Origin: Lysobacteraceae bacterium
Lineage (GTDB): Bacteria; Pseudomonadota; Gammaproteobacteria; Xanthomonadales; Rhodanobacteraceae
DNA: 64,000 nt
Reading direction: 5' to 3'
Assembly: GCA_004143945.1 (NCBI GenBank)
Contig: SEHB01000005.1
Coordinates: forward strand, 147,081 to 211,080
The notes under the pieces are model-generated. The model was not told the DNA's origin and searched no databases. It saw only the letters and a program-made list of their open reading frames with translations. How positions within the stretch are numbered: the stretch's first letter is position 1; every line of letters starts with the position of its first letter. Both the position numbers and the translations under genes were made by a program. Positions 440 to 58,396 of this stretch are shown in pieces.

Positions 440-1801
440 TCAGCGCGGCCAGCGGCGCGTGGGGTCGGGGCGTTCGAAGCCATCGGTGAACAGCGCATCC
501 GCCGTGCAGGCGCCGTCTGCGTCGTAGCGCAGCACATGCGCATCGTTGGACACGCCTTCGAACAGCGTGCCCGCCGCGAGCGTCCAGCCGTGCGCGCCGC
601 CCTCGGCGGCCGCGGCGAAGTACTGCGTCTCCAGGTTCGCCACGCGACACGGCCGCAGCTGCGCGTCGAACTCCGCGATGCGCAACCCGACGTGGCCCTG
701 GCTGTCGATGAAATCGAACCCGGTGACGAGCAGTCGCCCGTTCGGCGCCTGCGCGAGCCCGGTCGGCCAGCCCTCGATCGGCGCGAGGCCGACCGCGAGC
801 GGCTCGCCGGTCTGCCCGTCCGTGCGCAGCACGCGAAGCGGGCCGGAGAGGCCGAAGTCGGTCGCGACCAGCGCATCGCCGTCGGCGGCCAGCGCGAAGC
901 CCCCAGGCACCACCCTCATCAGCGGATTGCCCGGGTTTTCGAGCGCACGCGTCCACCGGCGCGTGCCGTCGGGCGCGAGCTTCCAGAGCTGCGCCTGCGA
1001 GACGCCGACCACATTCTCGAGCGCGCTGGCGGCGATCACCTCGTCGTTGCCGTCGACTTCCACGCGCACGAGCCCCTCGAAACCGTGGGTGGTGCCGTGG
1101 TGGCCGAGTTCACGGTCGTGGAACAGCACGCCGCCGTCCGCAGCGAACCGGATCACGAGCACGCCGCCGCTCTGCGGGTCGCCGCCGCCTGCGATCACCG
1201 CACCGCCGTCCGCTGTCGCGACGATGTCGTCGGCCTGCAGGTTCTCGGGGCCCGGCGACCAGCGCCACGCAGGCAGTGCGAGTCCGTCCGGGGTGTAGCG
1301 GATCACGACGAAGTCCTCGCCGTCGATCGCGGGGATCAGCAGGCCGCCGTCCGCGCCGATCGCGAGCCGGCGCGGACCCGCGGCGAGCAGGCCGGGCTGG
1401 GAGTGGTCCTCCCATGCGATCGCGCCGTCGGCGTCGTACACGCGCACGCGCACGTCTCCGAACTGGTCGATCACCGCGATGCGGCCATCCTGCATGAGGC
1501 GTGCGTCCATGCGGAACGAACCCGCACGCTCGCGCAGCCATGCGAACGCACCATCGGACTCGAAGCGCGCGATCGCCGCATGGCCCTGGCCGTCATGCCC
1601 GACGTCGATCAGGGCGAAGCTGCGCCCGTCCTCGGCCACGCGCACGCCGGCCGGGCTCGCGCTGCGCGGGGACGACTCGTATTGCCATTCGCCGATCCAG
1701 TCCGGCGTCCACTGCGCGCTCGCGGGCGCGGCGACGTGGCACCACACGACCAGCAGCAATCGGATCCAGGGCATGAGGCGGTTTCCGTCGGAGCAATGCA
1801 A
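440..1801 (-). CDS. Secreted beta-propeller-like (delta-60-like) protein with C-terminal LFTDGFE tail
   Basis: Signal peptide (start probably at internal MPWIRLLLVVW), repeated blades of the type '...R.DGG...IAG', C-terminus ADALFTDGFERPDPTRRWPR. Confidence 0.75.
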   Translation of the reverse strand: MHCSDGNRLMPWIRLLLVVWCHVAAPASAQWTPDWIGEWQYESSPRSASPAGVRVAEDGRSFALIDVGHDGQGHAAIARFESDGAFAWLRERAGSFRMDARLMQDGRIAVIDQFGDVRVRVYDADGAIAWEDHSQPGLLAAGPRRLAIGADGGLLIPAIDGEDFVVIRYTPDGLALPAWRWSPGPENLQADDIVATADGGAVIAGGGDPQSGGVLVIRFAADGGVLFHDRELGHHGTTHGFEGLVRVEVDGNDEVIAASALENVVGVSQAQLWKLAPDGTRRWTRALENPGNPLMRVVPGGFALAADGDALVATDFGLSGPLRVLRTDGQTGEPLAVGLAPIEGWPTGLAQAPNGRLLVTGFDFIDSQGHVGLRIAEFDAQLRPCRVANLETQYFAAAAEGGAHGWTLAAGTLFEGVSNDAHVLRYDADGACTADALFTDGFERPDPTRRWPR

Positions 1802-14974: not shown

Positions 14975-16366
14975 ATGGTCACCGCACTGCGCCGAATCGG
15001 CTTCACGCTCGCCTGCCTCCTCACGGTGCCCGCGATCGCGCTCGACGGCGAGTACGACCCGCGCTTCGGCAATTACCTGCCGGCCCGCACGCTGGTTCAG
15101 CCCCTGGCGGACCACCACGGCATGGCGTGGAGCATGGCCGTCTTGCCCGATGGACGGCTGCTGCTCGGCGGAGACGCGCTCGTGTTGCGACTCGGTGCGA
15201 GCGGACTGCCCGACCCCGCGTTCGGAAATTCGGCGTTCGGCGTCGCCGGCGTGTTCGCACTGCAACCGTTCGGCCCGCAGACGGGCTTCCTGCAGCCCGA
15301 AGCCATCCTGCGACAGGCCGATGGCAGGCTGCTCATCGTCGGCTCCGCCGAAGCAACGGACTTCCGCCACCAGCCCGTCGCGTGCCGGACGAGCGCCGAC
15401 GGAGTCCTCGATGAAACCTATGGCGACGCGGGCTGCAGCGCCTACGTCGTCGAACAGGGACGCGAAGCGACGGTCGGCGCCGCCGCGCTCGACGCGTCCG
15501 GACGCCTCGTACTTGCGATCGACGGGGCGTTCACGTTCGGCGATCGGATCGTGATGGTGCGCCTGCTCGGCGACGGCGCGCTGGACACGACCTGGGGCAC
15601 CAACGGGCGCACGGTGATCCTGCGTTTCGACGAGCTCGCGGGCGGCGGCACCTACCAGCAGCCCTACGGACTCGCGATCGACGCACAGGGCCGCGCGATC
15701 GTGGTCGGCGATTCGGGGCCTGCGAACTCGCACGATTTCGCGATCGCGCGCCTGGGTACCGATGGCTTCCTCGATCCGTCGTTCGGCGACGGCGGTGTGC
15801 GCGTGGTGGACTTCGCGGGTCAGCTTCAGACCGATGTCGCCTACGCAGTCGCCGTGCAGCGCAGCGGTCGGATCCTCGTCGGCGGCTACGCGAGCTTCGC
15901 GGGCACGCAACCGGGCATGGCGCTCCTCGCATTGACCGACGCAGGCGATGCCGACGCGGAGTTCGGCAATCTCGCGGGCCGAACGGTCGTGTGGCCTGTC
16001 GCGACTTCGGCCTACGCGATGGCGACCGGCCTCGCGGTCCAGAACGACGGGCGCATCGTGCTCGGGGGCTACGCGCAGAACCCGGCCGACGGCGGCGCAG
16101 CTGCACAGGACATGGTCGTGCTTCGCCTGCACGCCGATGGCACCGGACCCGATGCGAGCTTCGCGAACGCCGGCGTGTTCACCGCAGGATTCGATCTCGG
16201 CGTCCCGGGCGACACGTCGAGGGACGATCGCGTGCACGCGATCGGGCTGCAGGCCAACCGGGTCGTCGCGGTCGGCGGCGCCGCCGACGACTGGCCGCAC
16301 GCGTGGTACAGCGCGATCCGACTCACCGAGGACCACCTGTTCGCCGATGGCGTCGAAGCGCCCTGA
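14975..16366 (+). CDS. Secreted delta-60 repeat (beta-propeller) protein with C-terminal LFADGVE tail
   Basis: Signal peptide MVTALRRIGFTLACLLTVPAIAL; repeated 'LG.DG.LDPSFGDGGV' blades typical of the delta-60 repeat; ends TEDHLFADGVEAP. Confidence 0.85.
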   Translation: MVTALRRIGFTLACLLTVPAIALDGEYDPRFGNYLPARTLVQPLADHHGMAWSMAVLPDGRLLLGGDALVLRLGASGLPDPAFGNSAFGVAGVFALQPFGPQTGFLQPEAILRQADGRLLIVGSAEATDFRHQPVACRTSADGVLDETYGDAGCSAYVVEQGREATVGAAALDASGRLVLAIDGAFTFGDRIVMVRLLGDGALDTTWGTNGRTVILRFDELAGGGTYQQPYGLAIDAQGRAIVVGDSGPANSHDFAIARLGTDGFLDPSFGDGGVRVVDFAGQLQTDVAYAVAVQRSGRILVGGYASFAGTQPGMALLALTDAGDADAEFGNLAGRTVVWPVATSAYAMATGLAVQNDGRIVLGGYAQNPADGGAAAQDMVVLRLHADGTGPDASFANAGVFTAGFDLGVPGDTSRDDRVHAIGLQANRVVAVGGAADDWPHAWYSAIRLTEDHLFADGVEAP

Positions 16367-17596: not shown

Positions 17597-19087
17597 ATGC
17601 GCATGCTTTCCGCATTCCTTTTTTGCACGACCCTGCCGACCTGCTGCGTGCACGCGGCGACCCTCGTCGTCGACTCGACCGCGGACACGAGCGTCGTCGA
17701 CGGCGACTGCACGCTGCGCGAGGCGCTCGCGGCCGCGAACAACACGACCGTGCCGGACTGCGGTACGGGCCAGGCCGCGCCGATCGTGGACGTCATCGCG
17801 TTCGCGATACCGGGCGCGGGACCGCACGTGATCATGCCGACCGGCTGGCTCGGCTCGATCAACGAAGCGCTGACGATCGACGGCTCCACGCAACCCGGCT
17901 CGATGCCGAACGCCGCGACCCCGCAGCAGGGCGGAATCGACGGCACGATCGCAATCGAGCTGTCGGGCGAGGCCTGCGCGGGGTGCACGGCACCGTTCGG
18001 TTTCGGCGCCAGCGAGGGCGAGGTGGTCCTGCGTGGACTTGCGATGACGAACTACGCGTATGTCGTCAGCCAGGCGGTCGGCACGCAGGCGACGTTCCGC
18101 ATCGAAGGCTGCCACCTCGGAATCGGCGCGGACGGCGCAACCTCGGGCAGCCCGCCTTCAGGCATCGCGATCGCGAGCGGCAGCTGGATCATCGGCGGAC
18201 TCGCGCCGGCGCAGCGCAACCTGATCGTCGCGACTGCGTTCATGAGTCCGGCCGCTTCGATCCTGCTGCAGGGCAACCTGATCGGCACCGACCGCAGCGG
18301 CCTCGAATCGCGGCCGATCGCCGGCGAGGCGATGCAGCTGCGCGTCGGTCCCGGCCAGTTCGCGCGTATCGGCGGCAGCGATCCCGCGGCACGCAACGTG
18401 ATCGCATCCGCGAGCGGCATCGGCGTGCACCTGCTCGGTTTCGGGGCCGACGGCGCCGACCTGCGCGTCGAGGGCAACTTCGTCGGCGTCGGCATCGACG
18501 GCGTCACGCCGCTGCCGAACGGCGCGGCCGGCGTGCGCTACGGAAACAGCGTGCCGCCCGGCACCGGCAGGCCGCGTATCGGCGGCGGCGGCGCATCCGG
18601 CAACACGATCGCATGGAACCTCGGACCCGGCGTCGAGATCGCAGGCACGTCCGACACGATCGCCGAAGTGGTCGGCAACGCGATGCACGACAACGCGATC
18701 GGCATCGACATCGACGGCAATGGCCCTGTCCCGAACGATCCGGACGACATCGACACCGGACCGAACCTGGGCATGAACCACCCGCAGCTCCGCCGCGTGG
18801 CGTACGCGGCGGGTCAGTACACCATCCACTACCAGGCCGACATCGCCGTCGCGAACGCGGCGTATCCACTGCGCATCGACTTCTACGTCGCGGCCGGACC
18901 CGACGATGCCGAGGGCATCCAGTGGATCGGCAGCGAAACGATCGACGCGCCCGAAGCGCAAGCCTGGCGCGAGCTGACGCTCGCGGGTCCCGGACCCGCC
19001 GCGCTGGTGGCGACCGTCACCGATGCCGCGGGTCGCAGCAGCGAATTCTCCGGCAAGGACCGGATCTTCGCGGACGCATTCGAGTAG
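17597..19087 (+). CDS. Secreted CSLREA-domain right-handed beta-helix protein with C-terminal IFADAFE tail
   Basis: Signal peptide; ATLVVDSTADTSVVDGDCTLREALAAANN (CSLREA signature); beta-helix repeats (NLIGTDRSG...); ends SGKDRIFADAFE. Confidence 0.87.
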   Translation: MRMLSAFLFCTTLPTCCVHAATLVVDSTADTSVVDGDCTLREALAAANNTTVPDCGTGQAAPIVDVIAFAIPGAGPHVIMPTGWLGSINEALTIDGSTQPGSMPNAATPQQGGIDGTIAIELSGEACAGCTAPFGFGASEGEVVLRGLAMTNYAYVVSQAVGTQATFRIEGCHLGIGADGATSGSPPSGIAIASGSWIIGGLAPAQRNLIVATAFMSPAASILLQGNLIGTDRSGLESRPIAGEAMQLRVGPGQFARIGGSDPAARNVIASASGIGVHLLGFGADGADLRVEGNFVGVGIDGVTPLPNGAAGVRYGNSVPPGTGRPRIGGGGASGNTIAWNLGPGVEIAGTSDTIAEVVGNAMHDNAIGIDIDGNGPVPNDPDDIDTGPNLGMNHPQLRRVAYAAGQYTIHYQADIAVANAAYPLRIDFYVAAGPDDAEGIQWIGSETIDAPEAQAWRELTLAGPGPAALVATVTDAAGRSSEFSGKDRIFADAFE

Positions 19088-57551: not shown

Positions 57552-58112
57552 TTACGGATCGATCAGCTCGAACCCGTCCTGGAACAGCGTGTCATCGATG
57601 CGCAGGTCGATCGTGCTCGAATTGTTGCCGGTCGGGTCGGTCAAGCCCGAACCTGCCGACAAGGTCACCGTCGCGGTATTGAAGAACTCGTCGTAGTCGT
57701 TGGCCGGATCCGCCGCGGAGCCCACTTCGCCCGCCAGCGTGAACGTCAGCGCTGCGTCCTTCGGCACCCACGCGATCGTGACATCGAGGGCACCGGCGCC
57801 CTGGTCGGGCGTCGCACAGGTGGTACCGACCGCCGCGGTGCATTGCCAGGCCAGGCTCGCCGGATCGATGCGATCGGGCACGCGATCCTGCACGCGCATG
57901 CCCGCGGTATCCGCTTCGCCATCGTTGCCGACCGTGATCGTGAACGTCACGGTGTCGCCCATCGACGTCACTTCGCAACGCACGCAGCGGACACGAACGC
58001 AGAGAGGACCGATCGCGGACGACGCAACGCGCGCGAAGCCGACGACGAGGACCATCCGCGCGCGTGATTCCATCCGTGCGATCCGTGTCGGCACGTGACA
58101 CGGACAGGGCAT
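57552..58112 (-). pseudogene. DUF11-type repeat protein, probable C-terminal remnant, ends DDTLFQDGFELIDP
   Basis: GDTVTFTITVGNDGEADTAGMRVQDRVPDRIDPASLAWQCTAAVGTTC...EFFNTATVTL...GNNSSTIDLRIDDTLFQDGFE; no convincing signal peptide and the domain begins mid-fold. Confidence 0.55.
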
Positions 58113-58321
58113 GCAAGCAGGCGGCAAACCGGACTGATCGATCCGAACACGCGCCGATCCATGCGGCGCAATGACCGCATCTTCGAACCCGGTGGCAGAC
58201 AGCAATCGACGTGCCAACGCCGGTCGTCGCGCGCCGCGAGTCGCGGGCCGACGGCAGGTGATTCTCGATGCCTGGATGACGAACTTCCGCGTCGACGCGG
58301 ATCGGCGGGATGTCGGCGGTA

Positions 58322-58396
58322 TGGTGGGCCGTGATGGGATCGAACCATCGACCAATGGATTAAAAGTCCACTGCTCTACCGCTGAGCTAACGGCCC
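58322..58396 (-). tRNA. tRNA-Lys (anticodon UUU), CCA encoded
   Basis: gggccgttagctcagcggtagagcagtggacttttaatccattggtcgatggttcgatcccatcacggcccacca folds as a cloverleaf; anticodon loop cuUUUaa. Confidence 0.95.

Follow-up and report, generated by a model that had tools for sequence, protein, structure and literature searches.

The window that we analysed, a stretch of 64,000 nucleotides from the genome of a Lysobacteraceae bacterium, encodes four proteins that finish in closely similar residues, and the question raised by this locus is whether such a tail is a sorting tag and, if so, which system would recognize it. A preliminary examination of the letters alone (the sequence-only reading) had reported the four C-terminal tails, all of which proved to read exactly as stated. 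With the protein bodies assigned by their matches to Pfam and NCBIfam, the features are the following:

473..499, minus strand: tag DALFTDGFE (core LFTDGFE 493..473), 10 residues before the stop (stop 442..440)
440..1774, minus strand: delta-60/DUF5122 beta-propeller protein bearing that tag; likely start ATG 1774 (MPWIRLLL...); signal peptide, by eye, MPWIRLLLVVWCHVAAPASA, followed by QWTP
16331..16357, plus strand: tag DHLFADGVE (core LFADGVE 16337..16357), 2 residues before the stop
14975..16366, plus strand: delta-60 repeat/DUF5122 propeller protein bearing that tag; signal peptide, by eye, MVTALRRIGFTLACLLTVPAIA, followed by LDGE
19058..19084, plus strand: tag DRIFADAFE (core IFADAFE 19064..19084), 0 residues before the stop
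17597..19087, plus strand: CSLREA protein bearing that tag; signal peptide, by eye, MRMLSAFLFCTTLPTCCVHA, followed by ATLVV
57567..57593, minus strand: tag DTLFQDGFE (core LFQDGFE 57587..57567), 4 residues before the stop
57552..58073, minus strand: DUF11-domain ORF bearing that tag, without a signal peptide; tRNA-Lys (58322-58396) just upstream

When the whole window was searched in six frames with a relaxed motif, these four tails were the only matches close to a stop, and when the residues were shuffled inside each of the 228 open frames that had 150 amino acids or more, 0.0 such tails were expected, versus the 4 observed. The bodies do have different folds, as had been proposed, but are of three kinds and not four, the proteins at 440..1801 and 14975..16366 both being delta-60/DUF5122 propellers; the span 440..505, under which the feature had been entered, covers only the tail of the first gene, whose likely start is the ATG at 1774. 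The description of all four proteins as secreted is in keeping with the signal peptides that we recognized in three, but is unproven for the DUF11 ORF, for which no signal peptide was visible in any frame upstream. Since, in addition, the listed start of that ORF falls within the tRNA-Lys gene, the ORF is probably a gene fragment, namely the C-terminal remnant of a longer gene; from its position directly downstream of the tRNA (57552-58396), the sequence looks like a leftover 3' end at a possible integration site. Beyond the left edge of the window (locus L037, G000:C27:145000-152000), a second delta-60-like propeller gene whose product carries the tag, ending in EGEADQVFADGFEPAP at the stop, adjoins the gene at 440..1801, the two being tandem paralogues. 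AlphaFold runs without an alignment on two of the window proteins gave a pLDDT of about 36, too low to be of use.

A nine-residue motif and its cargo

The genome holding the window (G000, 3.67 Mb) was searched with a strict motif, written as the DNA pattern for F-x-D-[GA]-F-E and controlled by the reversed pattern, and with a generalised 9-mer, D-x-[IVLM]-F-x-[DN]-G-F-[DE], so that the proteome-wide statistics given here are based on pattern searches and fetched loci. The strict motif occurred in 50 copies versus 0 in the reversed control, and 44 of the 50 were situated 0-24 residues before a stop; the generalised 9-mer occurred in 85 copies, while its control gave 4 matches in all the 150 genomes of the order. 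A crude signal-peptide predictor was positive for 29 of 35 motif ORFs versus 45 of 149 others (p 1e-8). These figures bear out the anticipated genome-wide enrichment at the C-termini of signal-peptide-bearing proteins.

The alignment of the 44 tagged proteins over their whole length revealed that they have only the end in common, DxIFADGFExP. An aspartate at position -3 was present in 41 of the 44 tails and an isoleucine, valine, or leucine at -1 in every one, though both of those positions lie outside the search pattern; farther upstream no position was conserved, sharp conservation being confined to nine positions. A profile of the tails retrieved further variants, with C-terminal DGFD or NGFE forms in 20 of the 20 weaker-match loci that were fetched. 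The third codon positions vary—GGC 28, GGG 12, GGA 5, and GGT 3 for the glycine, GAG 31 and GAA 17 for the glutamate—and the same peptide is written with other codons in AT-rich genomes; what is conserved is therefore the peptide, and a motif at the DNA level is ruled out. The tail is a short linear motif and a candidate sorting signal, with the core [IVLM]-F-x-[DN]-[GA]-F-[DE] usually preceded by D-x, that lies as a rule 0-24 residues from the C-terminus; in the window's own genome as many as some 80 exported proteins, otherwise unrelated, bear the nine-residue tag.

That no formally named family describes this tail, as had been supposed, is in agreement with the databases, in that the final residues of the window's four proteins lie outside every Pfam and NCBIfam match, and the families listed for the 44 (the best 25 of 39 from NCBIfam) include no C-terminal sorting domain. 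Open-access papers contained no mention of FADGFE, FSDGFE, FRDGFE, or their kin, and the tail profile found in the PDB chance matches only (e.g., the N-terminus of an ADP-ribosyltransferase, PDVIFRDGF, E 0.86).

The bodies of the 44 proteins match 39 NCBIfam and 47 Pfam families, among which are choice-of-anchor Q (6), delta-60, DUF11, beta-helices, FG-GAP, and GH44 (EpsB), along with the LapA aminopeptidase, PHB depolymerase, endonuclease I, LPMO, subtilase, and M36 families named as rhombosortase-dependent and myxosortase-dependent. We take this cargo to consist of typical exoenzymes of type II secretion systems (T2SSs), or of proteins whose relatives bear PEP-CTERM, GlyGly-CTERM, MYXO-CTERM, or LPXTG tails.

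The location within about 15 residues of the C-terminus, though true of all four window tails, does not extend to the whole genome, where some copies are N-terminal or lie between domains; a strictly C-terminal location is accordingly refuted by such copies and by tandem ones. At loci from other genomes, 50 of 57 matches were C-terminal. In DUF1800 proteins, the motif immediately followed the signal peptide in 16 of 18 copies from genomes possessing the second T2SS described below, versus 0 of 3 from G053, the one genome without that system in this contrast, where the test pattern, [IVLMA][FYW]xxx[FYLMH][DEK], was degenerate and written after inspection; another DUF1800 subfamily that was also searched had no motif. 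At L146 the motif precedes a subtilase-like domain, and at L018 and L019 it links a propeller-like body to a common further domain; the latter, a C-terminal domain of some 190 residues (YDDLEESFLGTSY..GVTYRD.NGIGGVFPDGSTF), there follows the motif behind two different bodies. The tandem tails of family f9 end in DLIFENGFELSDLIFKDGFE, DLIFRDGFDNSDLIFFNGFEES, and DLIFEDGFDPFIDLIFIDGFE, each at the stop. At L118 (G010), IFADGFETGDTSAWTTTISS comes after the tag DLIFSDGFE, so that the motif has a likeness to the start of another domain as well. With copies that are N-terminal, internal, or in tandem, a C-terminal cleavage signal is unlikely; such flexibility of position argues for docking rather than for removal of the tag, or its transpeptidation, at the C-terminus.

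Distribution across genomes and co-occurrence with a second T2SS

Among 150 genomes of the Lysobacterales/Xanthomonadales the strict count ranged from 0 to 77, and in a set of 299 genomes of the phylum all the counts outside that order were at background (at most 12); the enrichment is limited to the window's order and is patchy there. The version with an immediate stop occurs in Dokdonella fugitiva, Marinicella meishanensis, and MAGs of the Lysobacterales; the lineages of G091, G065, and G005 keep the core without the aspartate at -3, and genus g23 of family f10 has a few FxDAFE forms.

The sequence-only reading had looked to phylogenetic co-occurrence with one protease or secretion component, and such a component was found in a second T2SS, designated here T2SS-A, whose class of GspD was present in each of the 23 contrast-set genomes that are rich in the motif. 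The T2SS-A operon encodes a GspC with T2SSC and PDZ matches, GspD, and GspF, with FtsE-FtsX after GspF in several loci; ftsE-like genes were seen after gspF in seven. The T2SSC domain and PDZ matches were detected in 11 of the 11 GspC-A proteins scanned, several of those PDZ matches being below the Pfam cut-off. In T2SS-B, the common class, GspD is longer and has the appearance of a lipoprotein, and a scan of ten genes around it revealed no GspC. Comparison with a Xanthomonas-like genome, which has two such systems, suggests that T2SS-B is Xps-like and T2SS-A distantly Xcs-like.

A profile of the T2SS-A GspD divided the 150 genomes into 81 carriers, 7 with a distant Xcs-like relative, and 62 without. 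A mean strict count of at least 9 was reached by 28 of the 33 T2SS-A genera versus 1 of the 31 non-carrier genera, so that T2SS-A was present in 28 of the 29 genera with such a count (p 1e-9 in a genus-level Mann-Whitney test; p 1e-20 in a genome-level Fisher test). In the window's own family the 4 carrier genera are the only 4 motif-rich ones of 14, and among the 12 genera of family f2 one alone is a carrier and it alone is motif-rich. G118 and G123, at first sight exceptions, contain fragments of T2SS-A at contig edges; elevated counts with no T2SS-A detected were confined to G048 and G059, which are MAGs of 90% and 77% completeness, and to G063 and G097 of family f8, with 15 and 9 strict copies, respectively, and no detectable T2SS-A secretin. 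Conversely, the 15 genomes of f10 g23 (G009 and its congeners) and G064 possess T2SS-A, with a PDZ-bearing GspC in those that we checked (G064, G089, and G094), and few or no tails; these genomes may use a diverged tag. T2SS-A is not sufficient for the tails, and the dependence is one-way, the tails almost always implying T2SS-A.

In the T2SS-A tree the rows group by family, which topology is consistent with vertical descent and repeated loss. So vertical-looking a tree means that there were perhaps only about three independent loss events; the co-loss may reflect shared ancestry, and another co-lost gene may be the true partner. A tagged protein was encoded beside T2SS-A at only 1 of 16 loci, that of the window's own genome, where a Ser/Thr kinase-TPR protein and a DEAD-box helicase (L087, L088) also adjoin the system; the kinase-TPR protein is likewise found in G031.

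Rhombosortase and exosortase, for their part, are out as partners by their genome distribution. A rhombosortase (TIGR03902) above the cut-off was encoded in 3 of the 48 contrast genomes, all of them motif-poor, the best match in the window's own genome scoring 43 bits versus a cut-off of 84, and an exosortase (TIGR02602) in 0 of the 48.

A proposed docking motif for T2SS-A and rival explanations

The notion of a short, undescribed recognition sequence for secretion, surface retention, or processing finds support in the enrichment of the motif, in the lack of a model covering it, and in the co-occurrence with T2SS-A, except that the copies near the N-terminus, inside proteins, and in tandem speak against a role in processing alone. 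In the simplest model, GspC-A, through its PDZ domain, or else GspD-A would read a short motif; the main rival is retention at the surface after export. A tagged protein would cross the inner membrane by means of its signal peptide and fold, the motif staying exposed outside the folded body, be it C-terminal, next to the signal peptide, or repeated in tandem; within its periplasmic vestibule T2SS-A would then receive the exposed motif, the PDZ domain of GspC or the N-domains of GspD being the most plausible docking sites, and the protein would pass the outer membrane, perhaps to be kept at the surface. The binding to T2SS-A, its site, and export as the outcome we infer from the genomic pattern, and we consider the chances about even that the tag is a linear motif marking Sec-exported proteins for T2SS-A, docking there, and leading to export through the outer membrane.

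If the tag served instead in retention or anchoring, export would be independent of the motif, and a receptor or a modification at the outer membrane or surface would hold the protein on the cell, comparably to GlyGly-CTERM though by another chemistry. The cargo families that elsewhere have alternative anchors (choice-of-anchor Q and the rhombosortase- and myxosortase-dependent M36 proteins) speak for that possibility, tandem copies would fit avidity, and GlyGly-CTERM provides a precedent in working with a separate secretion signal (PMC13393428); but no candidate receptor was found, the tags right after the signal peptide and between domains go against retention by C-terminal transpeptidation, and the distribution of rhombosortase and exosortase is unfavourable, so that we regard retention as rather unlikely. 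Less probable still is an indirect link, by which a protease, chaperone, glycosylation enzyme, or receptor was co-inherited and co-lost with T2SS-A. An association does not show contact, the losses were few and clade-wide, and f10 g23 and G064 retain T2SS-A nearly without tails; against these considerations, the three alternatives examined (T2SS-B, rhombosortase, and exosortase) all fail to fit, and T2SS-A is the natural exporter for the class of cargo that is tagged.

That the motif is a neutral remnant—either part of the opening strand of a domain that begins '...IFADGFEtGDTSAW...' or a functionless linker spread by recombination—is suggested by L118, in which the motif is followed by IFADGFETGDTSAW and a further domain. 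The dozens of copies per genome, the peptide kept with varied codons in GC-rich and AT-rich genomes alike, the sharp limitation of the conservation to nine positions, and the near-absence from genera without T2SS-A render this explanation highly improbable. An artefact of chance or composition, for which the shortness of the motif might argue, is scarcely conceivable with controls of 0 against 50 in the window's genome and of 4 generalised matches in 150 genomes.

How a T2SS chooses its substrates is a long-standing question, and as of 2025 no conserved signal directing T2SS substrates through the outer membrane had been identified (PMC11981180); the tag may be the sought-after address label for T2SS-A. 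The motif predicts dozens of cargo proteins per genome and co-occurs with one class of T2SS while a second shares the cell, which circumstance makes the question directly testable. Even as a retention tag the motif would represent a new kind of surface-sorting signal, one lacking a membrane helix, and under either reading annotators could predict exported proteins in the Lysobacterales. A general, transplantable, linear T2SS export signal of 7-9 residues—active at either end of dozens of unrelated cargos and read by the GspC PDZ or GspD N-domains of one T2SS lineage—would, if proven, be categorically new, protein sorting signals as such being already known; on the present genomic grounds we hold this broader proposition to be possible though somewhat doubtful.

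Comparison with known sorting systems

As the sequence-only reading had stated, the tail lacks a hydrophobic helix with a basic cluster, the core being followed by 0-24 polar or proline-rich residues. The tag is neither PEP-CTERM nor GlyGly-CTERM because exosortase is absent and rhombosortase is limited to three motif-poor genomes. The resemblance to GlyGly-CTERM and rhombosortase lies in a short C-terminal tag borne by many T2SS-type exoenzymes of unrelated folds, whereas the present tag has no glycine-rich stretch, hydrophobic helix, or basic cluster and occurs in other than C-terminal positions as well. With PEP-CTERM and exosortase it shares the dozens of tagged proteins per genome and the phylogenetic patchiness, but not the PEP motif, membrane helix, or arginine cluster. 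MYXO-CTERM and myxosortase likewise involve a tag on secreted enzymes, and one of our tagged proteins matches myxo_dep_M36; nevertheless, the 44 tails contain no invariant cysteine, and the tag has no helix or basic end. An LPXTG-like motif with a membrane helix and a basic tail was found in none of those 44.

The C-terminal domains of the T9SS (TIGR04183) also sort many types of cargo to the surface from the C-terminus, but are long beta-domains of the Bacteroidota, in contrast to the 7-9 residues found here in one gammaproteobacterial order. Even at E<=10, none of the window's four proteins matched the models for those domains, and no T9SS family was among the best 25 of the 39 families of the 44 tagged proteins.

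A parallel to the mechanism proposed for the tag is that of VesB with EpsC and PelI with OutC (PMC12369372), where information borne by the substrate is read by a PDZ-bearing GspC. The PDZ domains of GspC are needed for particular substrates, and the PDZ-dependent signal of VesB is in its Ig-fold (PMC12369372); docking is likely to take place at the second periplasmic region of GspC, which often has a PDZ fold (PMC11981180). In those examples, however, the information resides in a folded Ig/Fn3 domain of single substrates, whereas the tag is linear and common to dozens. It counts against the proposed model that the tag, unlike the classical PDZ ligand, which is a free C-terminus, comprises 7-9 residues that are then followed by up to 24 variable ones.
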